IMG/VR virus record: IMGVR_UViG_3300030090_000999
Location: 1-34,062 of that record
DNA from: a virus
Length of the DNA stretch: 34,062 bases
Strand: one strand, 5' to 3'
How positions within the stretch are numbered: position 1 is the stretch's first letter; every line of letters starts with the position of its first letter. Positions 20,132-33,461 of this stretch are shown here, piece by piece. The position numbers and the translations under genes are program-made. The notes beneath the pieces are model-generated. The model saw nothing but the letters and a program-made list of their open reading frames with translations. It was not told the DNA's origin and did not search any database.

Positions 20132-23100
20132 ATGAACGAAGAGTTATTGCAAATAGTTGAAGCTATGATAGCTGCTGGTGAACCAGCGGAGTCTATAGAA
20201 GCTGTTATTAATCAGTACCAATCTCCACAAGAAGAGATCAAGATACCTGACGCTAATGTTATACCTATTAGTCAACGTGACTTAGACGATGGTTTAAAGC
20301 CTGAGTCATATGTTAACTCCACCGCTTGGAGTTCATCGGGTTTAGATAGATCTACATACTATGATGAACAAGGAAACTTACTTACGGTAAATGCTACCGG
20401 TATTCCGTTTGACCCACTTACAGACATTGGTTATTCTTTAGCATTAGAAGACGAAGCAAGAAGAGAAGAGTTGATGAGAGAGTCAGAAGCTCCAATTATT
20501 TGGTCTTCTGAAGGTTTATTTACTGTTACAGATGAAGATCAAGAAAATGCTATCGCCGCTGCTAATGCTACATATGATAGTTATGCAGCTATAGATCAAG
20601 TGTATGAATCTGACACTCGTTATCAGTCATTCAATTATGCGGATGGAGGTTCTGAAGTACAAAGAACAAGAGATGTACTAGACCCTCAAGGAGACGGAAC
20701 GCAGACAATTTCTGTTACAGACACTGTAGCCGAAGGTTGGCAAACTATGTATTACGAAGGTTTTGATGCCATTATACCCGGCGGCGAGACACCTCGAGAA
20801 AGAGAGGCGAGATTTATGGGTATTTGGAGAAGCCAAGGAAAAGCAATGGAGAGAGGGACATTAAATAAACCCCGAGCCTTTTCAAGCTCATCTTCCGAAT
20901 TAACTTTTACCGCAGAAAAATATGCTCAATGGAGACTTGGTTTAGCTAGAGATCCTAGCAACGATTTATACGATCCGTTGTTAGCTAGTAATATTTATGA
21001 CAAGTTTGAAGAAGGTACTGATTTAAACAAATTATACGAAGTAGAAAAAACTTTACTAGCTATACAAAAGTTAGAAAAAGAAACTGGCGAAAAAATAAAC
21101 TTTACTCTAGGCGAAGATAAAGTAAGCGACGTTCCTGGATTACAGAAAATGATTAACAGCATATCTAACGACGATCCAGAGTTAAAAGATATAATTGTTA
21201 AAAATGAATCTAGAATTAATAGAAGTAATCAGATCAGCCAGCAAGCTCTAGAACTAGCTAATAAAGAGATTGACGAAGAGCTATACTCTCCAACAAAACC
21301 AGGTTTAATAAACTATTTATTTGCAACTCCTGAAGATCAAGAAGAAGCCGCTAAACGAGCTGAAGAAGATTTAGATTTTCTTGGAATAGACATTAAAGAA
21401 AAGGCTTTACAATACAACGCTATATCAGAGCAATATGCAGACGTTAACAGTCGATTAACGGATGTAAATAAAGAGCTTGAAAAAGAAGAATATAAAGATC
21501 CTAAAGCTCATATAGAGGAAATAAAAGCTAAACACGATTTAACAACGCGAGAAGGTGTTGCCGCCGCTAATAAAGAGATACAAGAGTTTATTGGTAGGTA
21601 TTCTAATTTAATTGAAGAGTATAATAGGCTAAGACCTGCGGTTCAAGATACAGCCACTGCTTTAATAAGATTAGAACAAGAAATTAGTGATCTTGGAGTT
21701 AGAGAGCAAGATTTAAGTGCGTTTACAAATACAATTAGTAAAAACCATAGAACAGCTACTAAAGTCGCTTTAGCTTTTAGTAACGCAACGGTTGATCTAG
21801 TTCAAGGCGCCGCTGAATTTGTTTATATGGTAAATCCTTTAGGAGCTATAGCCGATGAATTAGTAGATTACGCAGGCGAAGATTCTTTGATTGGTACTAT
21901 TGTTGAAGTAGCAAGATATGCCACGGCTATACCTACTGGTGGTATAACTTTATACTCTGGAGAACGAAGAGACGATGTAACTCAAGCTATTGACGGGTAT
22001 CAGCAAAACGTAAGCTCGATGGTTGGCGAAGCTGTTCGCTTTGAGGATATTGAAAGCACTGGAGATGCTATAGAGTGGGCTTTAGTAGCTGGCGCATCAC
22101 AAGTTCCGCAGCTAGCTTTACTTGCTGCTACAGGTGGTACAGCTGGTTTAATAGTCATGGGTGCTACATCAGCTGGCCAAAAGTTTTCAGCTATGGATCA
22201 GCAAAGAGATCTATACAGGCAAACTGGTGGCATGTACGGCCAAAACCATAATTTTGCTACTATGTATGCTAACTCTATTGCTACAGGTAGTATAGAGGCT
22301 TTATCTGAAAGAGTAACTTTAGGGCTATTAAAAGGAACTGGTGGTGTAGTATCCAATAGAGTATTTAAAAGCGTAGGCTCTAAAAAGGCGGCTGATATGT
22401 TTAAGCGTCGCTTGTTTACAAAAGAAAACTTAAAGTACTCTACTAAGAAGCTTATTGACATAGCTGAGGAAGGTGGTTCTGAGGCGTTAGCTACTATGGG
22501 TGGTAATTACATTGATAGGTTAAGCGGAGATAAGACTGTAAATATATTTGATGACGTAGCAGAGTCTTTCGTGACTGGTGCATTGATAGGCTCTACTTTA
22601 TCAATGCCACACGTGTTCAAAGACGCATACAGTGCTTTCCAAAGTGTAGAAGCATCTACAGCTATAGCACAAAACTTTGATAGAATACAAGCTAATAACG
22701 ATATAATAAACGATCCTAAATCTTCTCAAGAAGCTAGGGATGCAGCGTTAGCGGCTATTGCAGAATTAACTGCACAAAACTCAGAGTTTATAGCGTTAGA
22801 TTTAAAAAGAGTTGATTCTCTTTCAAGCGCTCAAAAAAGAGAGTTGTTTGAAATAGAAAAATCTCAAAGAAACTTAGAAGTACGGTTTGCTGAAATTAAC
22901 GCGTCTGATATGACGTTAGAGCAAAAGCGAAAAATAGCTAACGAAATGAACGCTGGCTATAACAAAAACCTTGCTCGTAAAAACGAAATACTAAAAAGCA
23001 TACCTACAGATCAAGTTCTCAAGAACCACGAAAACGAAATAAAGCGTATAGAAGAAGAGAGCGCTAGATTAGTTGCTGAAGGTGGCCCAGCTATCAATGT

Positions 23101-26100
23101 TACTAGAGCAAATGGTAAGAACGACGCAGATATTGCAGAGCAGTTTGAAGAGTGGAGGAATAACGCTAAGAAAAAAGGCAATGTAAAAATTGCAGCTTCG
23201 GAAGACGGCACGCAAGTTTATGGTGCTATGGTACCAATTTTAGATAATAGCGGAAATGTTATTAACTACGAGATGTTCTTCAATGATAAGAACATTTACG
23301 AAGACGGTGTTACCACTACTGGATCGCATGAGCTATTACACGCAGCTGTATTTAACACTATAAGGGCTAATCCTGCCTTAAGAAATAGATTTGGTGATGC
23401 TATAAATAGAATACTAGAAGGGCCTGGTGTAAAGATATCTAACAAAGCTCAAAAAGAGTTAGATCGTGTTAATCAGTACAGCAAAGAACAGCGAGGTGAA
23501 GAGATATTTGCGATAGTATCTGAGCTAATGGTGTCTGGCGATATAACAATTGATGGTAGCGCTGTAGGTAGATTTAAAGACTTGATGCGTAGAACCACTA
23601 TGCAGACTACAGATACTGACATAGAGTTTAATGATGATACTGACGTTAGGAACTTCTTAAAAGATTATTCAAGATCAAGAAAGAAAGGTCTTGCTGATAA
23701 ACGTATAACAAGCTTATTTACTAAATCAGCTAAAGGTAAGTTAGTTGAAACTGAGATTAGTAGAGAGGAAGCTAAAAGAGTTGTTGAAGGTAGGCTTGAA
23801 GAAGCTTTACAAGAAAGCTACATGAGTACACTATCTGCTAGTCTTAGAGCTAAACCGGATTTACGTCAAGAGTTTGACCAGTTTGTAAAAAATGAAGATG
23901 GAACACCGAAGTTTGCTACAAATGCTCAGTTTTTAAGTGAAGGTAGCGCACAGGCGTATTTAAAAATAGTAGAATCACCGGCGCTTGACGGTTTAATACA
24001 GCAAGGCATGACCGAGCGTGGTTTACCACCAGCGGCATTACGAGATTTTACTAGAAAAGTAAAAGAAAATTTAGCAGATAGATTATTAACTAACTATGAC
24101 GTAACTAAAAACGATAGTTTATTTGGTTGGTTGACAGGTGTATCAGGTGGCGCTGGTAGGTCTATTATATATAGAGCTAAAGGCGACGTTATGAATCAGT
24201 ATAAAAAAGACGGTGAGCTTGAAACTGTTTCTATGGATGCTCCAGTAGGTGAAACAACTACGTTTGAAGCTACTATAGAAGCTGAAACCGATGCATTTAT
24301 GCAGCAGCTTGAAGAAGCTGACTTAAGTAGGACTCGCGCAGAGCGTGAAGCTAGAAAACCAAAGAGAGTTGTTAACGAGCTAAATATTGACAGTGACGGT
24401 AAAGCCGCTATAAATAAAGCTGTATCAGACGCGGCGGTTGACATAGCTGGCTTACAGTATAAAGACGTAAAAAAGCTTGGTAATTCCGTTGACGCACCAT
24501 TGTACAAAACACTACAAGTTGTATCAGAAAAGTTCGGTGTAAATCCTAAAAACGTTATAAAATCCGCTAACTTAAATACTAAGCAGCGTAAGTCAGCTCA
24601 GCAGTTTATAAACAAAAACGCAGAGTTTTTGCTTAATATGTTGCCTGATGGTGAGACTAGAAGCGGAGAAGCCACTGGTGTACCTAGAGTATTGTTAAAT
24701 AATTTCTACGAAAAAGGTGAGAGATTAAAGTATAAAGACGGAGCGACGGCTGCGGGTAAGTTTACACAGCAAAAGCGAACTGATATAACACCTGAGCAAT
24801 TTAAAGAAGCTTTCGGTATTAGACCAGACGGTACTTTAGATAACAACAGAAAATACGACAGCGCAATAAACGCTTTAGTCAATCAAGCCACTATGCTTGC
24901 TAACAACCAGGCTTTACGCGAGTACGCTATGAAAGAAGGCACTGCTTCAGAGGCAGTAGTAGCTAAATTAGGTGAAGGTAGAGCTGAAGTAATGTTTAGC
25001 GTAAGGGTAAGAGACAGTGTTAAAAACACTTTTGATCAATTATATCCTGATCTAATAACAGCTGTGGCAGCATCTAACACTGGCGACATAGACTCTATAA
25101 GAGTAGCTGTTGAGTCTGTTTATGGTAACGTACTTAGTAAATCTGAAATTAACAGATTAGTAAACGAGGTTTATGATCAAGCAGACGAGTATAATACTAT
25201 AAACCAAAACTTCAAAGGTGTTGGAGTTGATGCGCCTTTAAGCTTAGAGCAGTTTTTACAAGATAAATACGAAAGTAATAATAGTGAAAAAGGTATATTA
25301 AAAGCATTAGAAGATAAGTTACCAAAAGACGAAAATGGTAAAACAATAAAGATAGGTGCTCACTTTCTAGACGCTGAAAGGATAAATAAGCAACGAGCTA
25401 TACCAGGTCTGTTTGTTGCTGAAGCTAAAAAACAAGGTTATTCAGATCAGCAAATAGCTGAAATGCTCATAGCTCACGCTGCTCCTATGTTTTCTGGAGC
25501 AAGTAAAATAAGTGACGGTAGATTTGTTGTAGAAGAAGGTGTTGTTGTTGAAGATCCTAATTGGAAACCTACTAGAATAAATAAAAAAGGCCAAGAAGTT
25601 CCTCAGAAAAACAGAAAACAAGCTTTTCAAAACGTACCTGATTACATAGCTGTACTTAACACTCTTGGTCTAGGTAAAATAGAAAAAGTTGGACGAGGTT
25701 ATACGCTTGATGGAGCTTCGTTAAATACTACGTTAATACCTGAAACATCAGAGGCTAGATTAAAAGATGCTAGATTTGAAAAAGGTAAAAAGCAGGCTGA
25801 AGACGCAAGAGTTGTTACAAAAATGGTATTAGACTCTTTATATGCTAAAGCCAACGATCCAAAAAGTAATTACGATTACGCTGATTTTGCTATGACTTTA
25901 ACTAGTCTTGGTTCTAGTATGCAAGCGCCTATGAGGAGAGCTGCTTTATTTGAGTATTTTATGGAAGGCGTTGAAGATGTAGTAGCTAATAGAGGTGATG
26001 CAAGTATTGGGTCTGTTACTGAGTTTGAGCATTTAAAACCTCAAGAAGAGGCTATTGGAGAGATTATACACTCTTACTTAACTACTGGTGAGCTTGACAT

Positions 26101-29100
26101 GCGTATATTTGAAGGTGGTGGACCTTACAGGCCATACAAGACTGGAGTTATTAGCAAAAGCATGGACAACGCGGTAACAGACGCTGGTCATAAGTTTACT
26201 TCTCCAAGATTAGGAAGAGGCGATAGTAGGCAATATTCGTTCGAGGCTATCCGTGATAATAGAATTAGACCTCTTAGAAGTATTGATCCAGCTAAAAAAG
26301 GAACTGCAAAAGAGTTTGTTGGTAGAGAGTGGGTGCAGATGAATGACGCTATAGCTAGAGACGATGGCACTGTAATAAGAGACATGAAGGTTCTAGGTGG
26401 TATATTTGGAAACATATCGTTCTCAAAAAGACCTGCTAAAAATAAAGGTGCTAGCATACTTGATTTTGACGATACGTTAGCTACAACTAAATCTAGCGTG
26501 TTGTTTACGGCACCTGATGGCACTAAAGGTAAGTTAAACGCCGAAGAGTATGCTAGAGATTATGTTGAGCTGCTTGGCCAAGGTTATGAGTTTGACTTTT
26601 CAGAGTTTAATAAAGTAGTTGAAGGAGCTCCTGGCCCATTGCTTAATAAAGCTAAAAAACTAGCTAAGAAGTTTGGCACCGATAACATGTTTATCTTAAC
26701 TGCTAGAGCGCCACAAGCTCAAGAAGCTATATTTGAGTTTATGAAATCGCAGGGCTTAGAGATACCTATTAATAATATTATAGGTTTAGGTAACTCTACT
26801 GGTCAAGCTAAAGCTAACTGGATCGCGGAAAATTTAATAAAAGAAGGCTACAATGATATGTACTTTGCAGACGATGCGTTGCAAAACGTCGAGGCTGTTA
26901 AAAATATGTTTGAGCTCTTTGATGTTAAAAGCAAAGTTCAACAAGCTAAAGCTGAGTTTAGTAGAAGAGCGCCTAAGCAAATGGATGATATCATTGATGA
27001 AGGCGCCGCAGACCTTGATTCAGACTTTAACATTATACTAGAAGAAACTAAAGGTGTAGCTAGGTTTAAGCAGTTTTCTGCTGGTAAAGCTAGACAACGC
27101 GGTAAAAACAAAGGTAGATTTAAGTTCTTCATACCGCCATCAGCAGATGACTTCGCTGGTTTGCTATATAGCTTCATGGGTAAAGGAAAGCAAGGCGACA
27201 AGCACCACAAGTTTTTTAAAGTCAATTTATTTGATCCGTTTAGTAAAGGAATAAGATTATTAAATAGAGCAAATCAAATAGCTGCTAATGATTTAAAAAA
27301 CCTACGTAAAGCTTTTCCTGATGTACGTAATAAGCTTAAAAATAAACTACCAGGCTTAGAATATACTACTGAAGACGCTATAAGAGTATACAACTGGAAT
27401 CAACAGGGCTTTGATGTACCAGGTTTAGCACAAACAGATTTAAATGCTATTGTAAAAGCTATTGAAGGTGATGCTAAATTAAAAGCATTTGCAGATGGAG
27501 TTAGCGTTATTAATATAAACGAAGCAATAGTTCCTGATGACTCTTGGCTTGCTGGAACTATAGCTTCTGATGTCAATGAAGCTCTTGAAACCGCAAGGTC
27601 AACGTATTTACAAGAGTGGATTGATAATAAAAACGCTATATTCACTGAAGCCAACATGAATAAAATTGAAGCTGTTTACGGCTCTAATTTTAGAGAAGCT
27701 TTAGAAGACGTGCTATTCCGTATGGAAAACGGTGGTAATAGATCTCGTGGTCAAGGTAGGTTAATGAATAACTTTACTAATTGGATACATGGTTCTATTG
27801 GTACTACGATGTTCTTTAACGCTAGATCAGCTATGCTGCAAATGATATCTAACGTTAACTTTATCAACTGGAGCGACAACAACATGCTAGCGGCTGCTAA
27901 AGCATTTGCTAATCAACCACAGTACTGGAAAGACGTGGCAATGATATTTAACTCTGATTTCTTAAAACAAAGAAGAGGTAGGATACAGACTGATGTTAAC
28001 GCTGCGGAATTACTATCAGAAATACGTGATTCTAAAAACCCAATGAAGAAAGCTACAGCGTACTTGCTTCAACTAGGTTTTACACCAACACAAATAGCAG
28101 ACAGCTTTGCTATTGCAACGGGTGGAGCTACTTTCTACAGAAACAGAATTAACTCACACACGCAAAATGGTTTGTCTCAAGCTGATGCTGAGACTCAAGC
28201 GTTCGAAGACATGATGGAGATCGCTGAAGAAACTCAGCAGTCTACAAGAGAAGATAGAATATCTCAACAGCAGGCTTCGCCTCTTGGTAAGTTTATACTA
28301 GCTTTCCAAAACACACCTATGCAGTACAACCGTTTGATTAAGAAAGCTGCTCAAGACTTAGTTAACAGAAGAGGTAGTGATACCGCTAACGTATCTAAAA
28401 TAGTTTACTACGGTGCTATACAGAATATGATATTCTATGGATTACAACAAGCTTTATTCGCGGGGCTGTTTGGTGATGACGAAGAAGATCAACTTGATGA
28501 TGATAAAAAAGAAAGAGTAATCAACGGCATGTTTGATACTGTTCTTAGAGGGTCAGGTATAGGCGGTGCAGCTGTATCTACTGTGAAAAACGTTATACTG
28601 CGTTTTATGGAAGAAGAAAAGAAAGCAGACGACGATAAATTTTTTACAGAGCCAGACCATGCTTATACTGTAATAGAGGCTCTTAATATATCTCCACCGA
28701 TAGGTATTAAAGCTAGAAAGTTATATAGTGCTTTGCAGTCTTGGGAGTTCAACAGGGAGGTTATTGACTATATGGATAAGACTGATATTGATAATCCAAT
28801 TTACGACGCGGTATTTAGCGCTACGGAAGCTATTACAAACCTGCCTTTATCAAGACTATACAGTAAGTATCAAAACTTAAAAGAAGCTGCTAATTCAGAT
28901 CACGAAACCTGGAAGAGAGTAGCTATGCTATTAGGTTGGAGCAAATGGAGCTTTGGTATTAAAAACCAAGATGTGATGTCTGCTAAAAACGAGATTAAAG
29001 AAATTAAAGCAGAAGAAAAAGAAGAGCGTAGAGAGCAAAAGAAGAGAGAAAGAGAAATTGAAAAAGCTGAAGAAGAACGTCAAGTCATCGAAGACAACAA

Positions 29101-29335
29101 GCTAGATCAAGAAGAAAAAAGAGAAGATGGCGCTACTGAAGTTCAATGTGCCGCCGTTAGTAGATCAGGTAAGCGCTGCTCTAACATGGCTCTGCCTGGT
29201 GAAGATTTCTGTACAATACATATGCCAGTACCACAACAAGCTAACGAGGTACAGTGCTCACATATAAAAGATAACGGCGAACGCTGTAAAATGAAAACTA
29301 AAAACAAATCAGGAAAATGTTACTACCACGATTAA
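20132..29335 (+). CDS. Giant polyvalent ejection protein (3,067 aa): zincin, HAD domain, twin Cys/His modules
   Basis: A 3,067-residue protein, the largest in the window, probably packed in the capsid and injected with the DNA, by analogy with T7 gp16 and the large polyvalent proteins of marine phages. Visible parts in order: helical N-terminal half; hydrophobic Ala/Gly-rich segment near residues 647-680 that may insert in a membrane; HELLH zinc-protease motif at 1066-1070 with a possible third ligand, Glu1123 or Glu1124; a sigma-factor-like stretch near 1310-1370; a HAD phosphatase-like domain at about 2105-2265 with D2111-x-D2113-x-T2115, T2190, K2227 and D2247-D2248; a conserved region FFIPPSADDFAGLLY after it; a conserved FQNTPMQYNRL block near 2725 followed by a hydrophobic stretch at 2757-2785; a highly charged helix near 2950-3000; and two C-x9-C-x10-C-x2-H modules at 3006-3030 and 3042-3066. 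Each domain's activity is inferred, not demonstrated. Confidence 0.72.
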   Translation: MNEELLQIVEAMIAAGEPAESIEAVINQYQSPQEEIKIPDANVIPISQRDLDDGLKPESYVNSTAWSSSGLDRSTYYDEQGNLLTVNATGIPFDPLTDIGYSLALEDEARREELMRESEAPIIWSSEGLFTVTDEDQENAIAAANATYDSYAAIDQVYESDTRYQSFNYADGGSEVQRTRDVLDPQGDGTQTISVTDTVAEGWQTMYYEGFDAIIPGGETPREREARFMGIWRSQGKAMERGTLNKPRAFSSSSSELTFTAEKYAQWRLGLARDPSNDLYDPLLASNIYDKFEEGTDLNKLYEVEKTLLAIQKLEKETGEKINFTLGEDKVSDVPGLQKMINSISNDDPELKDIIVKNESRINRSNQISQQALELANKEIDEELYSPTKPGLINYLFATPEDQEEAAKRAEEDLDFLGIDIKEKALQYNAISEQYADVNSRLTDVNKELEKEEYKDPKAHIEEIKAKHDLTTREGVAAANKEIQEFIGRYSNLIEEYNRLRPAVQDTATALIRLEQEISDLGVREQDLSAFTNTISKNHRTATKVALAFSNATVDLVQGAAEFVYMVNPLGAIADELVDYAGEDSLIGTIVEVARYATAIPTGGITLYSGERRDDVTQAIDGYQQNVSSMVGEAVRFEDIESTGDAIEWALVAGASQVPQLALLAATGGTAGLIVMGATSAGQKFSAMDQQRDLYRQTGGMYGQNHNFATMYANSIATGSIEALSERVTLGLLKGTGGVVSNRVFKSVGSKKAADMFKRRLFTKENLKYSTKKLIDIAEEGGSEALATMGGNYIDRLSGDKTVNIFDDVAESFVTGALIGSTLSMPHVFKDAYSAFQSVEASTAIAQNFDRIQANNDIINDPKSSQEARDAALAAIAELTAQNSEFIALDLKRVDSLSSAQKRELFEIEKSQRNLEVRFAEINASDMTLEQKRKIANEMNAGYNKNLARKNEILKSIPTDQVLKNHENEIKRIEEESARLVAEGGPAINVTRANGKNDADIAEQFEEWRNNAKKKGNVKIAASEDGTQVYGAMVPILDNSGNVINYEMFFNDKNIYEDGVTTTGSHELLHAAVFNTIRANPALRNRFGDAINRILEGPGVKISNKAQKELDRVNQYSKEQRGEEIFAIVSELMVSGDITIDGSAVGRFKDLMRRTTMQTTDTDIEFNDDTDVRNFLKDYSRSRKKGLADKRITSLFTKSAKGKLVETEISREEAKRVVEGRLEEALQESYMSTLSASLRAKPDLRQEFDQFVKNEDGTPKFATNAQFLSEGSAQAYLKIVESPALDGLIQQGMTERGLPPAALRDFTRKVKENLADRLLTNYDVTKNDSLFGWLTGVSGGAGRSIIYRAKGDVMNQYKKDGELETVSMDAPVGETTTFEATIEAETDAFMQQLEEADLSRTRAEREARKPKRVVNELNIDSDGKAAINKAVSDAAVDIAGLQYKDVKKLGNSVDAPLYKTLQVVSEKFGVNPKNVIKSANLNTKQRKSAQQFINKNAEFLLNMLPDGETRSGEATGVPRVLLNNFYEKGERLKYKDGATAAGKFTQQKRTDITPEQFKEAFGIRPDGTLDNNRKYDSAINALVNQATMLANNQALREYAMKEGTASEAVVAKLGEGRAEVMFSVRVRDSVKNTFDQLYPDLITAVAASNTGDIDSIRVAVESVYGNVLSKSEINRLVNEVYDQADEYNTINQNFKGVGVDAPLSLEQFLQDKYESNNSEKGILKALEDKLPKDENGKTIKIGAHFLDAERINKQRAIPGLFVAEAKKQGYSDQQIAEMLIAHAAPMFSGASKISDGRFVVEEGVVVEDPNWKPTRINKKGQEVPQKNRKQAFQNVPDYIAVLNTLGLGKIEKVGRGYTLDGASLNTTLIPETSEARLKDARFEKGKKQAEDARVVTKMVLDSLYAKANDPKSNYDYADFAMTLTSLGSSMQAPMRRAALFEYFMEGVEDVVANRGDASIGSVTEFEHLKPQEEAIGEIIHSYLTTGELDMRIFEGGGPYRPYKTGVISKSMDNAVTDAGHKFTSPRLGRGDSRQYSFEAIRDNRIRPLRSIDPAKKGTAKEFVGREWVQMNDAIARDDGTVIRDMKVLGGIFGNISFSKRPAKNKGASILDFDDTLATTKSSVLFTAPDGTKGKLNAEEYARDYVELLGQGYEFDFSEFNKVVEGAPGPLLNKAKKLAKKFGTDNMFILTARAPQAQEAIFEFMKSQGLEIPINNIIGLGNSTGQAKANWIAENLIKEGYNDMYFADDALQNVEAVKNMFELFDVKSKVQQAKAEFSRRAPKQMDDIIDEGAADLDSDFNIILEETKGVARFKQFSAGKARQRGKNKGRFKFFIPPSADDFAGLLYSFMGKGKQGDKHHKFFKVNLFDPFSKGIRLLNRANQIAANDLKNLRKAFPDVRNKLKNKLPGLEYTTEDAIRVYNWNQQGFDVPGLAQTDLNAIVKAIEGDAKLKAFADGVSVININEAIVPDDSWLAGTIASDVNEALETARSTYLQEWIDNKNAIFTEANMNKIEAVYGSNFREALEDVLFRMENGGNRSRGQGRLMNNFTNWIHGSIGTTMFFNARSAMLQMISNVNFINWSDNNMLAAAKAFANQPQYWKDVAMIFNSDFLKQRRGRIQTDVNAAELLSEIRDSKNPMKKATAYLLQLGFTPTQIADSFAIATGGATFYRNRINSHTQNGLSQADAETQAFEDMMEIAEETQQSTREDRISQQQASPLGKFILAFQNTPMQYNRLIKKAAQDLVNRRGSDTANVSKIVYYGAIQNMIFYGLQQALFAGLFGDDEEDQLDDDKKERVINGMFDTVLRGSGIGGAAVSTVKNVILRFMEEEKKADDDKFFTEPDHAYTVIEALNISPPIGIKARKLYSALQSWEFNREVIDYMDKTDIDNPIYDAVFSATEAITNLPLSRLYSKYQNLKEAANSDHETWKRVAMLLGWSKWSFGIKNQDVMSAKNEIKEIKAEEKEERREQKKREREIEKAEEERQVIEDNKLDQEEKREDGATEVQCAAVSRSGKRCSNMALPGEDFCTIHMPVPQQANEVQCSHIKDNGERCKMKTKNKSGKCYYHD

Positions 29336-30360
29336 GTTTATTATTAACCTTATTGTTTAGCTGTGCGACACTGCAGGCTCAAGAGCTAAAGAAAGCTTTT
29401 AAGTTCTCTACGTTCTACGCAGCTGTAAATGGAGGTAACTCCGTGTCAGATCAGACTATATACTCTGTTACTAACGGGTTGACTCAAGAGACTATAGCAA
29501 CACCATTTGACTACAGTCTATCTATGGGTGTACGTAAGATCGCTAGGTTTGGTTACGAAAATAGAGCTAACGCTTTTTATGACGGATCAGAAACATCTTG
29601 GTCTGCTGACGCAAACATAGGTAAACGTAACGGCATAGAGTTTCTTGGAGAAGTTACATACGAAAGACAGCAGGGCCGAGAGTTCTTTAACCAACACCAC
29701 TTTTTTCGCTACATCGGAGACAAAGTTATGGCAAAGGTTGAATATCTTGAAGACGGGTTTGCAGACATTGAGTACTTTGAAGGATCACAGCGATTTCGAC
29801 TTAAGTTCGGCAACAAGTTTTCTTTGCACGCAGGTGTCGCACAACGTATCTCAGAGCCTTACGGGTATGATCCACTTGAAGATTGGAAGCTGGCAACAGG
29901 AGACATACACTATACTTACCTCGCAATTGAAGAAGGATATTCACACAACCTTGTTACAGGCGAGTACCTCGATCCTGATGGGACAGTCGTTGCAACAAAC
30001 ACTGAAGTCTGGGAGGCAGTCACTATCCCTAACATCTTATCTGAATACACTGCTAGAAAAAGAAGTGAACTCGATCGTCAATGGAATTACTCAGTGGTTG
30101 CCGGCTTCGACTTCTATCACTTTACAGACGACTTCTGGTTCCACACATGGGGAAATATTTTACCCTACCATTACAACAGTGGAGGTGAATATATGTATCA
30201 CAATACAGTAGGTGGTCAATGGCTTGATTATTCAGGTGGGTTGATATTTGGCAAGAGATTTAACAAGCACATAGGTATATTCCTTGAAGGTAGATATTAT
30301 AAGTACTGGAATAGAGAGTGGTACAACTTTAAGTGTGGAGCAAACTATGTAATCTTTTAA
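29317..30360 (+). CDS. Secreted beta-barrel outer-membrane-like protein
   Basis: A 347-residue protein whose start overlaps the last 19 bases of the ejection-protein gene. The N-terminus is a signal peptide: MLLPRLSLLLTLLFSCATLQ, cleavage predicted after residue 21 (LQA before QELKK). The rest alternates aromatic and polar residues in short strands, and the protein ends in YVIF, the terminal Phe typical of outer-membrane barrels recognised by the BAM complex. Strand-like segments include RFRLKFGNKFSLHAGVA and the final ~60 residues. It could be a phage-encoded barrel inserted in the host outer membrane, for example to block superinfection or change permeability. A virion role is possible but less likely given the signal peptide. 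A Cys at residue 16 gives a poor lipobox (LFSC), so I do not call it a lipoprotein. The specific function is unknown. Confidence 0.65.
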   Translation: MLLPRLSLLLTLLFSCATLQAQELKKAFKFSTFYAAVNGGNSVSDQTIYSVTNGLTQETIATPFDYSLSMGVRKIARFGYENRANAFYDGSETSWSADANIGKRNGIEFLGEVTYERQQGREFFNQHHFFRYIGDKVMAKVEYLEDGFADIEYFEGSQRFRLKFGNKFSLHAGVAQRISEPYGYDPLEDWKLATGDIHYTYLAIEEGYSHNLVTGEYLDPDGTVVATNTEVWEAVTIPNILSEYTARKRSELDRQWNYSVVAGFDFYHFTDDFWFHTWGNILPYHYNSGGEYMYHNTVGGQWLDYSGGLIFGKRFNKHIGIFLEGRYYKYWNREWYNFKCGANYVIF

Positions 30361-30363
30361 GAT

Positions 30364-30648
30364 ATGGCAAAGCAAATAGGTGAGGATACTAAAGTAACGT
30401 TAGACCTCAAAACAATAGGTATGGCTGCAGCAGGTTTAGCTGCTTTAATTGGTATGTACTTCACGCTACAAGCTGATATAGCTTTAGCAAAAGAACTACC
30501 AGAACCACTACCACCAGACATCACTCGTATGGAGTTTGATATGAAAGATAAACTGGTGCGTCAGACTATTATGACTACACAAGAAGATGTGTCTGAGCTC
30601 AAAGAAGATTTAGATCGTATCGAAGAGAAAATAGATAAACTACAGTAA
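30364..30648 (+). CDS. Small single-span membrane protein with C-terminal coiled coil
   Basis: A 94-residue protein. A hydrophobic Gly/Ala-rich span at about residues 17-38 (IGMAAAGLAALIGMYFTLQ) is followed by a Pro-rich linker (LPEPLPPD) and a C-terminal acidic coiled coil (EDVSELKEDLDRIEEKI). One membrane helix with a coiled-coil domain on one side is seen in small phage holins, spanin inner subunits and virion membrane proteins. There are too few features to choose between them. Its stop codon overlaps the start of the next small gene (TAATG), and it lies 3 bases after the beta-barrel gene, so it is translated as part of the same envelope cluster. Confidence 0.6.
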   Translation: MAKQIGEDTKVTLDLKTIGMAAAGLAALIGMYFTLQADIALAKELPEPLPPDITRMEFDMKDKLVRQTIMTTQEDVSELKEDLDRIEEKIDKLQ

Positions 30649-30800
30649 TGAAAGAGTTTACACAGCACTTCTTTGGTATGTGTGATAGTCATACTTGTGA
30701 TTATCACGGACACCCAAGCATTATATACGCTATAGCTTTTATAGCTATATGCTCTATTGGTAGTATTGTAATTAATAAGAAAGCATGGAAGAAACAATGA
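30648..30800 (+). CDS. 50-residue membrane microprotein with a Cys/His cluster
   Basis: This short gene begins at the A shared with the previous stop (TAATG) and ends in a TGA overlapping the next start (ATGA at 30797). It encodes 50 residues: a cytoplasmic- or periplasmic-facing head with a Cys/His cluster (MCDSHTCDYHGH, residues 11-22), then one hydrophobic span (IIYAIAFIAICSIGSIVI, residues 25-42), then a basic tail KKAWKKQ. The overlaps on both sides are the best evidence that it is real, since they match the coupling seen across this cluster. The Cys/His cluster could bind a metal or form disulfides. Basic residues after the span suggest the C-terminus stays in the cytoplasm. Function is unknown; a small lysis or envelope protein is possible. 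Confidence 0.6.
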   Translation: MKEFTQHFFGMCDSHTCDYHGHPSIIYAIAFIAICSIGSIVINKKAWKKQ

Positions 30801-31153
30801 ACTTTAGAACAGTAGCGGCATACATTATCTTAATGCTATGTATGTTTGTGGCTGGTACAGCTTTTAGCCAAAACATGTGCAACAGTGATATTTGTGTCGT
30901 ACAGTTTAATGCTAGCTGGAACGAAAGCAATAGCGTAGATTATCTTGGCAAGTTAACAGACTGCGAAGTTATGAATATTAGTATTGACGAAGGTACTTAT
31001 CAATCTGATTATAAGATCGTAGTAGTACCTACAATCATAGTGTTTAACGGTAAAGAAGTTGAAAGGTTTCAAGCAAACATAATGATGGAAATGGAAGCTA
31101 CACGTAAAGACGTGCAAGGTGTAGTTGATGAAATAATATATAGCGATTTTTAA
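30797..31153 (+). CDS. Exported thioredoxin-fold protein lacking the CXXC active site
   Basis: I choose the ATG at 30797, overlapping the preceding TGA, over the in-frame ATG at 30785: it gives a clean signal peptide (MNFRTVAAYIILMLCMFVAG, cleavage near FS-Q25). The 118-residue product has a thioredoxin core: VVQFNASW leading to the active-site helix, then VVVPTIIVFNGKEVERFQA with the conserved cis-proline at residue 78, then a C-terminal helix. Where thioredoxins have WCxxC this protein has WNESN (41-45), so normal dithiol exchange is impossible there. Three other mature cysteines remain (28, 33 and 56), with C28-x4-C33 just before the first strand. It is probably periplasmic. It may act as a binding or chaperone version of the fold, or use the unusual pair; neither is shown. 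Confidence 0.7.
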   Translation: MNFRTVAAYIILMLCMFVAGTAFSQNMCNSDICVVQFNASWNESNSVDYLGKLTDCEVMNISIDEGTYQSDYKIVVVPTIIVFNGKEVERFQANIMMEMEATRKDVQGVVDEIIYSDF

Positions 31154-31154
31154 T

Positions 31155-33461
31155 ATGAGATATTTAATTTTATTTTTATTAGCACCACTAGGTGTATTTA
31201 GTCAACTTGACAGTATACCTCCACCACCTATTGATAGTATACCACCTTGTGTTATAACAAACTTGCAAGGTGAAATATCTTGTTTTCCATGGTCACCTAA
31301 TCAAGGTGAGCTAAGCGTAAACTGGGAAGCTCCACCAGGTTGTCAGCCTGTAGGATTTTATAGAGGCGATGACTTAGATAACTTACAGTTTATACCTTAT
31401 GGTCCTTGGTTTGGTAATTACTTTTATGGCTATGCACAATCTACGCCTGTATCTAGTAGCGAATATTATTTTATAGTAGAATCACCAGGCGGTATTATGG
31501 ATACTCTTGTATTAGATAATCCTAACTGTGGTCTTGGCTGTATGGATCCGCTAGCGTCTAACTATAATCCATTTGCTGGTATTGAGTCTGAGTTTGAAGA
31601 GTCTTGTTTGTACGGCAATGTATCTGAGTGCGGTGATACGTTAACTCAAAACGTTTATGTAAGTATAACAGGTGATACGTTTTCACAGTGGGAAACTAGC
31701 TGGGAAATATTAACTACAGACAGTGTACCTATTGTTTTAGCTAGTGAAGAACAAGGTTTTTATGAAACTGCTGGGCTTAACGTGACTACAGAGTATTGTA
31801 TACCGTTAGGCGTGGAGTTTACGTTTAATATATACGACTCTTGGGGTGATGGTCTTGCTGGTTCTACTACAGGTGGATCAGCTGATGGTGATGTATTAGT
31901 TTACACAGAGTGTGGCAATGTTATATACAGTATACTACCATTTGAAGGGCAAAACCCAGACTTTGGTTATGAAGCTAATAGTGTACCTAACTTGCTTAAC
32001 CTTTGTCCTCCAGAAAATCCACCGTTTGGTTGTTTAGACCCTAACTATTTAGAGTTTAATTCTCTTGCAGAAAACAACGATCAAAGCCAGTGTATAACGC
32101 CTGCAATACCAGGTTGCGTAAACGAAAACGCTTTTAACTATGATTCACTAGCTAACACTATGGACTTAGTGCCCGAGTGCGAATACACGTTAATGTTGTT
32201 TGATGGTGGTGGTGATGGTTGGGATAACTCATATTTAGGTGTAGTGCAAGACGGCGAGCCTATTGGCGCGTTTACATGTACAGAACAAGACGCTTTTTAC
32301 AATATTACAGTAAGCTCACTAACACATGTTGAGTTTACATTTTACCCTGTAGAGTTTGGTGGCTTCTTTGGTGAAGATGGAACTGTAACAGATATATCAC
32401 AAGTAGGTTTTAAGCTTATTAAGCCTAACGGAGATATTGTATTTGATAAAGGCACTAATCCTTGGCTTGATCCTGTAGAACCTAATAAAACTTACACGCC
32501 ATATTTAAGATGTGGTAACTACTGTGAGCCATACTCATATGGTTGTACAGATGAAACAGCGCAGAACTATAACTCTGAGATAAATACAGAAGACGGTAGT
32601 TGCTACTACCAAGCTGGTTGTACTCAAGCAGGTTACTTAGAATATTACACACAAGGCTATGAAGCTGATTACGATAACGGTGACTGTCAAACACTAGCAG
32701 TATTCGGTTGCATGGACGAAGAAGCATTTAACTATAACCCAGAAGCAAACGTTGATAACGAGGGTTGTATACCTGTAGTACTAGGCTGCATGAACCCACT
32801 TGCTTTTAATTACAACTCGGCCGCTAATACTGACGATGATAGTTGTATACCTTTCGTCTACGGTTGCACGGACGCAACAATGTTTAATTATGATCCAGAA
32901 GCTAATGCTGAAGACGGTAGCTGTATCCCTTACATTTATGGCTGTACTGACAGTAGCGCCTTTAATTATGATCCAACTGCTAATACTGATAATGGGTCGT
33001 GCGAGGAAGTGGTTGTCGACTGCATGGACCCAGCTGCATATAACTATAACCCTGAAGCTAATGAAGCCGCTAGTAACTGCTTATACGCGGCTGACTGCGT
33101 TACAGGACCAGGAGAACCGTACTGGTTGAACGATATGTGCTATGCTTGGGTAATTCAAGCAGATCCATATTGCTGTGATGAGGCTTGGGACGCTACGTGC
33201 CAGCAGACTTATAACTATTGTGAAACAACAGGTATAGAATCCATACTAGCTGGTGACGACTTAGTCGTATATCCAAACCCAGTTAGTAACGTGTTAAACA
33301 TAAATCAAAACGTTGACATAGACGTGATCGATTCAAACGGACGTATCCTATTATCTAAAACAAATACGAACGCGATAGACGCGTCCTTATGGCCTCCAGG
33401 AATGTATATGGTACGTATTGTTTGGAACGGTCGCGTTGTTGTCAAGAAGATTATCAAATGA
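31155..33461 (+). CDS. T9SS-targeted, cysteine-module surface protein
   Basis: This 768-residue protein has a signal peptide (MRYLILFLLAPLGVFSQ, cleavage near residue 16) and a C-terminal type IX secretion sorting domain at about residues 697-768: VVYPNPVSNVLNIN, then a DSNGRIL strand, GMYMVRIVW and final KKIIK. In Bacteroidota such domains direct proteins through T9SS across the outer membrane and are cleaved or anchored at the surface. Between them are ten modules of the form GC(M/T)D..AFNYNP.AN.DDGSC starting at residues 128, 292, 320, 463, 488, 518, 544, 570, 596 and 622. Two segments with the DSWGDG and GGDGWD pattern near 230 and 350 resemble jelly-roll domains common in marine flavobacterial secreted proteins. 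This is probably a phage-encoded protein displayed or released by the host. It starts 1 base after the thioredoxin-like gene. Confidence 0.85.
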   Translation: MRYLILFLLAPLGVFSQLDSIPPPPIDSIPPCVITNLQGEISCFPWSPNQGELSVNWEAPPGCQPVGFYRGDDLDNLQFIPYGPWFGNYFYGYAQSTPVSSSEYYFIVESPGGIMDTLVLDNPNCGLGCMDPLASNYNPFAGIESEFEESCLYGNVSECGDTLTQNVYVSITGDTFSQWETSWEILTTDSVPIVLASEEQGFYETAGLNVTTEYCIPLGVEFTFNIYDSWGDGLAGSTTGGSADGDVLVYTECGNVIYSILPFEGQNPDFGYEANSVPNLLNLCPPENPPFGCLDPNYLEFNSLAENNDQSQCITPAIPGCVNENAFNYDSLANTMDLVPECEYTLMLFDGGGDGWDNSYLGVVQDGEPIGAFTCTEQDAFYNITVSSLTHVEFTFYPVEFGGFFGEDGTVTDISQVGFKLIKPNGDIVFDKGTNPWLDPVEPNKTYTPYLRCGNYCEPYSYGCTDETAQNYNSEINTEDGSCYYQAGCTQAGYLEYYTQGYEADYDNGDCQTLAVFGCMDEEAFNYNPEANVDNEGCIPVVLGCMNPLAFNYNSAANTDDDSCIPFVYGCTDATMFNYDPEANAEDGSCIPYIYGCTDSSAFNYDPTANTDNGSCEEVVVDCMDPAAYNYNPEANEAASNCLYAADCVTGPGEPYWLNDMCYAWVIQADPYCCDEAWDATCQQTYNYCETTGIESILAGDDLVVYPNPVSNVLNINQNVDIDVIDSNGRILLSKTNTNAIDASLWPPGMYMVRIVWNGRVVVKKIIK
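32706..33080 (+). repeat. Five-unit tandem protein module (26 aa, 78 bp period)
   Basis: Within the T9SS-targeted gene, modules starting at residues 518, 544, 570, 596 and 622 are spaced by exactly 26 residues. Each carries an initial Cys, a F/Y-N-Y-N/D-P motif and a closing Cys about 20 residues on. The DNA between copies differs at many third positions, so this is an old, protein-level repeat rather than a recent DNA duplication. One disulfide per module is likely. Confidence 0.85.

Follow-up and report, generated by a model that had tools for sequence, protein, structure and literature searches.

Several cellular proteins use the thioredoxin fold for binding without, or apart from, dithiol catalysis, among them the b/b′ domains of PDI, ERp29, and the chaperedoxin CnoX/YbbN. 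The type IX secretion system (T9SS) is a system of the Bacteroidota. Phage-encoded T9SS cargo proteins have already been reported in Cryophage (PMC7468147) and in crAss-like/BACON phages (PMC6949934), with sorting domains that presumably direct these proteins to the host T9SS. In the accessible portions of these two reports, the cargo types are a glucanase, a glycoside hydrolase, a PA14 protein, and BACON repeats, with no mention of a pseudo-thioredoxin or of a cassette with a barrel or the 94-residue protein described below. A limited, largely open-access literature search likewise returned no report of a pseudo-thioredoxin tied to phage T9SS cargo.

Here we describe such an association in a virus record of 34,062 bp (G000), the whole of which is referred to as the window and which contains terminase, portal, and virion genes. 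The central gene, TRX, encodes a pseudo-thioredoxin that is predicted to be exported. Unlike PDI b/b′, ERp29, and CnoX/YbbN, which are cellular, the TRX family is nearly confined to phages and lies in a phage envelope cassette. The features of the window are as follows.

29317–30360, + strand: bb, 347 aa, signal peptide and outer-membrane β-barrel of about 12 strands (medium-confidence model)
30364–30648, + strand: p94, 94 aa, a single predicted membrane segment with a charged tail resembling a coiled coil; constant neighbor on the upstream side of TRX
30648–30800, + strand: 50-aa membrane ORF between p94 and TRX, N-terminal CDSHTCDYHGH; found in some close relatives only, non-core
30785–31153, + strand: TRX, pseudo-thioredoxin with predicted export, 122 aa
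30785–30868, + strand: predicted TRX signal peptide, residues 1–28
30878–30895, + strand: C28-x4-C33, not family-wide
30917–30931, + strand: WNESN at the CXXC place
30962–30964, + strand: third cysteine, C56
31028–31033, + strand: cis-Pro-Thr of the VVPTI strand
31155–33461, + strand: cargo, 768-aa secreted protein with repeated GC-[TM]-D..NYNP..GSC modules, starting 1 nt past the TRX stop
33267–33458, + strand: T9SS type A C-terminal sorting domain of the cargo (PF18962/TIGR04183)

Results

A sequence-only reading of this DNA had proposed a gene at 30797–31153 for an exported thioredoxin fold with the redox motif replaced and the cis-proline intact. The ORF, its translation, C28-x4-C33, W41-N-E-S-N45, and VVPTI were all found where that reading placed them. 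The end of the gene also stands, and its start is revised: 30797 is an internal ATG, and the ATG 12 nt upstream at 30785 (122 aa, MEETMNF...) is probably the true start, since relatives keep ME-(T)-x-T-MNF from that codon. Two numberings are therefore in use, with C28, C33, C56, and W41–N45 counted from 30797 and the alignment positions N42 through Q111 counted in the 122-aa protein. The ORF at 30785–31153 translates as MEETMNFRTVAAYIILMLCMFVAGTAFSQ followed by NMCNSDICVVQFNASWNESNSVDYLGKLTDCEVMNISIDEGTYQSDYKIVVVPTIIVFNGKEVERFQANIMMEMEATRKDVQGVVDEIIYSDF, the predicted cleavage falling roughly at the junction, ahead of a Q or N.

Four lines of evidence, namely selection, AlphaFold2, Foldseek, and profile search, establish TRX as a real gene with a thioredoxin fold. 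The mature part is under strong purifying selection, with dN/dS of 0.02–0.09 versus 0.06–0.49 in the signal part. The AlphaFold2 model (pLDDT 90.3, pTM 0.83) has the thioredoxin fold that had been proposed, its best Foldseek matches in the PDB are thioredoxins throughout (E 9e-5, TM 0.69), and the family profile matches the PDB thioredoxin 2vim with an E of 4e-9. By family tests TRX is not a thioredoxin, as it has no CXXC and the single sequence scores below the cut-offs of PF00085 (15.6 against 23.5 bits) and TIGR01068 (16.1 against 96.8 bits), yet the fold is that of a thioredoxin. Compared with thioredoxins (PF00085/TIGR01068; PDB 2vim, 2o89, 6kil), TRX shares the fold from the W-motif strand through the C-terminal helix and keeps the cis-Pro and the groove loops; it differs in being exported and in lacking both CXXC and the N-terminal strand-helix. 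It is also shorter near the old active site, where HMMER places a 5-residue gap straight after the W and the AlphaFold2 model has only a short helix after the former motif. Substitution of CXXC and deletion of CXXC together with the first helix turn are both possible; the motif is absent either way. The closest structural relatives found are unnamed viral proteins in BFVD (A0A516L471, A0A516M0U0, and similar), with TM-scores of 0.78–0.83 and 28–30% identity to TRX.

The claim that the protein is exported was supported by an N-terminal signal peptide that is clear by eye, from hydropathy (2.16 over 19 residues), and from evolution. In the window protein and its relatives these signal peptides are canonical and Bacteroidota-style, cleaved before Q, fast-evolving, and variable in length; in TRX, cleavage is predicted before Q29 (between AFS and QN). 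TRX is annotated as a predicted Sec-exported protein. A lipoprotein reading of the Cys that follows the signal peptide was rejected, as there is no lipobox (QNMC/QNLC/QNPC) and the residue is missing from many relatives.

Successive IMG/VR scans for TRX relatives returned 29 contigs, then 59, and finally at least 433. For counting, we used 191 distinct family members from loci sampled via TRX itself, p94, cargo, and barrel, and excluded one scan in which N-x-x-N was part of the query pattern. Every one of the 191 carries [WF]N-x-x-N at the CXXC place; none has CxxC in the core, and a search among them for an ancestral CXXC form at this genomic position found none. In a 41-sequence alignment (A6; 37–80% identity to the window TRX), N42, A43, N46, N49, P82, T83, E91, R94, and Q111 are invariant and F41, V80, Q96, and A97 nearly so. 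More divergent members retain N-x-x-N and the proline, with A43 and T83 varying, the latter (the Thr of cis-Pro-Thr) in L341–L343. From the alignment to thioredoxin and by comparison with E. coli thioredoxin, we take N46 and N49 to be the places of the two active-site cysteines, VPT to be the cis-Pro loop, and FQA to be the VGA loop. Read in this way, the conserved surface of TRX corresponds to the substrate-binding surface of thioredoxins, while the cysteines come and go.

The sequence-only reading had also singled out C28 and C33. As a conserved feature, this pair was overturned by the counts: C28 is present in 74 of the 191 relatives and C33 in 101, both less common than C56 (172), and 12 have no core cysteine at all. 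Thiol chemistry is therefore not the shared function of the family. Six of the cysteine-free proteins were checked against their own cargo, and the adjoining cargos hold 36–48 cysteines. This uncoupling rules out obligatory thiol chemistry and is still compatible with the holding of a Cys-rich client.

TRX lies in a cassette with bb, p94, and cargo. The bb model is an antiparallel 12-stranded barrel (pLDDT 73, pTM 0.70), and the protein has a signal peptide and a C-terminal aromatic residue. Its Foldseek matches are outer-membrane barrels, albeit weak (best E 6.5e-4, TM 0.34), and comparison with PorP/SprF or any known barrel gave no assignment. A search of p94 against spanin families gave no match, and the only family hit, a weak one, was phrog_1009 (function unknown), in 10 of 25 members. 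p94 is itself exceptionally conserved, being found on at least 525 contigs with 76–98% identity among the best 80. The cargo sorting domain was detected by PF18962 (6e-12) and TIGR04183 (1.9e-12, 47 bits against a cut-off of 23), and cargos across phages contain 18–88 cysteines. Exactly one PF18962 domain occurs in 72 of 83 TRX-bearing records; in most of the remainder (the L058–L067 group) the cargo is present with a shortened tail that PF18962 misses. This shortened C-terminus (..LGRPAK..LLFFIYDDGTVEKKxIK; L058:8374-10590, L062:8374-10584, L065:9556-11763, L066:8368-10281), which is also missed by NCBIfam, is possibly a minimal T9SS signal.

Independent sampling by TRX, p94, cargo, and barrel converged on one cassette in three gene orders. 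Starting from TRX, p94 lies upstream in 189 of the 191 loci, within 20 nt in 157, and both exceptions are cut by the contig end. A Cys-module cargo is near TRX in 161, and in each of the other 30 the sequence runs out within 5 kb on one side or both. The orders are bb-p94-TRX-cargo (72), cargo-bb-p94-TRX (63), and p94-TRX-cargo-bb (22). Sampling by cargo gave 65 loci, 57 of which have TRX, p94, and bb within 6 kb; the other 8 end where those genes would lie, so that every uncut cargo locus (57/57) has all three. Among cargo-bearing virus records, 30 of 32 have TRX, including contigs of 85–119 kb. Sampling by barrel gave 80 loci, with p94 and TRX in 69 and the rest cut on the expected side, as read from coordinates. 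The association of TRX with the Cys-module protein, first suspected from adjacency, is thus non-accidental, and neither of the two results that would have undone the earlier reading, a different fold or only rare adjacency in relatives, was obtained. As to the cargo being the partner of TRX, the linkage is fixed, but p94 (the tightest neighbor) and the barrel are equally part of the unit, and the cargo is therefore only one of three candidate partners. A few divergent records show p94-TRX with no barrel or tailed cargo detected beside it (L071 in G032, L029/L080 in G038, and L341–L343, within 4 kb).

The surroundings of the cassette vary widely (L299, L264, L303, and others) and include endolysins, holins, a thermonuclease-like protein, and capsid-decoration-like repeats, indicating that the cassette travels as a single unit. 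In several lineages it is bordered by genes for an endolysin (Amidase_2, M15) or a holin (phrog_3427). In the window, it has virion-gene neighbors, lying between a 3067-aa protein and a downstream fiber-like ORF, with no lysis gene identified at its borders. The 3067-aa ORF (20132–29335), whose product is probably a large internal virion protein, contains a HELLH-like metalloprotease motif (GSHELLHAAV).

Among cultured phages in INPHARED, no relative of the window TRX protein or of p94 was found, and a consensus-like TRX query matched, along some 40% of its length, nothing but ordinary thioredoxins of Streptomyces phages. A profile pattern scan of bacterial genomes found no TRX relative. A survey at the level of the order (296 genomes) and of the phylum (395) yielded one virus-like contig in a MAG (G116), equal in length to an IMG/VR contig, and one chromosome-like copy (G333, WNDKN); weak matches in that family are ordinary WCGPC thioredoxins. 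In G333, the exported WNDKN homologue (L336:1-1972, C183:110-472) lies upstream of an M1-type aminopeptidase-like gene on a chromosome-like bacterial contig, and it is perhaps a rare cellular member of the N-x-x-N family acquired from a phage. Cargo-like proteins are encoded, with no TRX alongside, in MAGs of Flavobacteriales/Cryomorphaceae, and the TRX family is missing from the bacterial genomes that encode them. These cargo-like proteins, the restriction of the T9SS to Bacteroidota, and the binning of one virus-like contig from this group (43,296 bp; L308/L267) with a Flavobacteriales MAG make Flavobacteriales the likely hosts. TRX is carried by hundreds of uncultured marine phages that probably infect Flavobacteriales.

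Discussion

We tentatively favor, at somewhat short of an even call, a non-redox pseudo-thioredoxin that acts in the periplasm during infection and binds a partner peptide as an escort, holdase, or adaptor for a cassette protein. TRX would reach the periplasm by Sec and fold there as a minimal thioredoxin. Its groove would hold an extended peptide of the partner without chemistry, the Asn side chains taking the place of the cysteines. The conserved VPT and FQA loops and the invariant N-x-x-N at the old active site, in a groove mapped by alignment to thioredoxins, are consistent with such a binding role. In order of belief, the candidate clients would be the cargo en route to the T9SS, the barrel, and the periplasmic part of p94; the cargo is placed first because it must cross the periplasm before type IX secretion. 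Linkage does not separate these clients, as all co-occur and p94 is the tightest, and the divergent records that keep p94-TRX with no detected barrel or tailed cargo favor p94 as the obligate partner. Together, the four genes would allow the phage, late in infection, to display a protein of its own on the host cell.

The flanking endolysin and holin genes also fit a lysis role. On that account, p94 would be a spanin-like protein of the inner membrane, the barrel its outer-membrane counterpart, and TRX the periplasmic link between them, with the cargo incidental or a surface accessory. The products would then line up from the inner membrane through the periplasm and outer membrane to the cell surface, and it is these flanking genes in several lineages, along with the position of p94 as the tightest neighbor, that keep the explanation alive. 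We nonetheless consider it rather unlikely. Outer-membrane spanins are small lipoproteins, not 347-aa barrels such as bb, and p94 has no spanin-family match. Linkage to the T9SS cargo is no looser than to the barrel, and the cassette in the window has virion genes for neighbors.

A change of the host surface that serves to exclude superinfection or to mask receptors also seems unlikely. Here TRX would hold a p94–barrel complex as its structural stator or adaptor instead of escorting cargo. A phage barrel combined with a T9SS surface protein is a natural route to altering the host surface, and the groove of TRX is conserved without any enzyme motif; phage T9SS proteins have precedents (PMC7468147, PMC6949934). 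However, these genomes look lytic and would gain less from exclusion, and the escort model fits the same linkage data.

In a third account, TRX is a redox folding factor in which C28/C33, or C33/C56, serve as a substitute dithiol, creating or rearranging disulfides in the Cys-module cargo. The subfamily of the window itself has C28, C33, and C56 all invariant (28/28), the same three positions are occupied in 59 of 99, and TRX would enter an oxidizing compartment alongside a cysteine-laden cargo. The family-wide counts and the cysteine-free proteins beside Cys-rich cargos already strongly weaken this account, and the cysteines lie away from the groove, at strand starts, where structural disulfides are common; we regard it as very unlikely. 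That TRX is a virion or injected protein merely bearing a hydrophobic N-terminus is more improbable still: it would suit the place of the window cassette between the giant protein and the fiber-like ORF, but not the canonical, fast-evolving signal peptides, the export of cargo and barrel, or the position of the cassette elsewhere in other phages.

The four-gene set suggests a dedicated phage kit for remodeling the host envelope. We can further picture, as a doubtful extension of the escort reading, a trans-envelope device with p94 in the inner membrane, a Cys-independent TRX in the periplasm, a dedicated outer-membrane barrel, and a Cys-module protein that surfaces via the host T9SS. This would be the first known use of the T9SS by a phage with its own accessory proteins, and the groove, converted from C-x-x-C to N-x-x-N, would be a pure binding clamp.

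In PHROGs, Pfam, and NCBIfam, all four protein families have weak annotation or none, and they recur across at least 400 viral contigs. If the proposal is correct, hundreds of marine phages would have in common a conserved, hitherto undescribed cassette, which reaches across the envelope of their likely hosts, the Flavobacteriales, and makes use of a Bacteroidota-specific secretion system. TRX would offer a tractable case of a thioredoxin groove under strong selection after the loss of all redox chemistry, and the cassette would supply a delimited group of genes with which to ask how lytic phages benefit from decorating a host surface that is soon to be destroyed.
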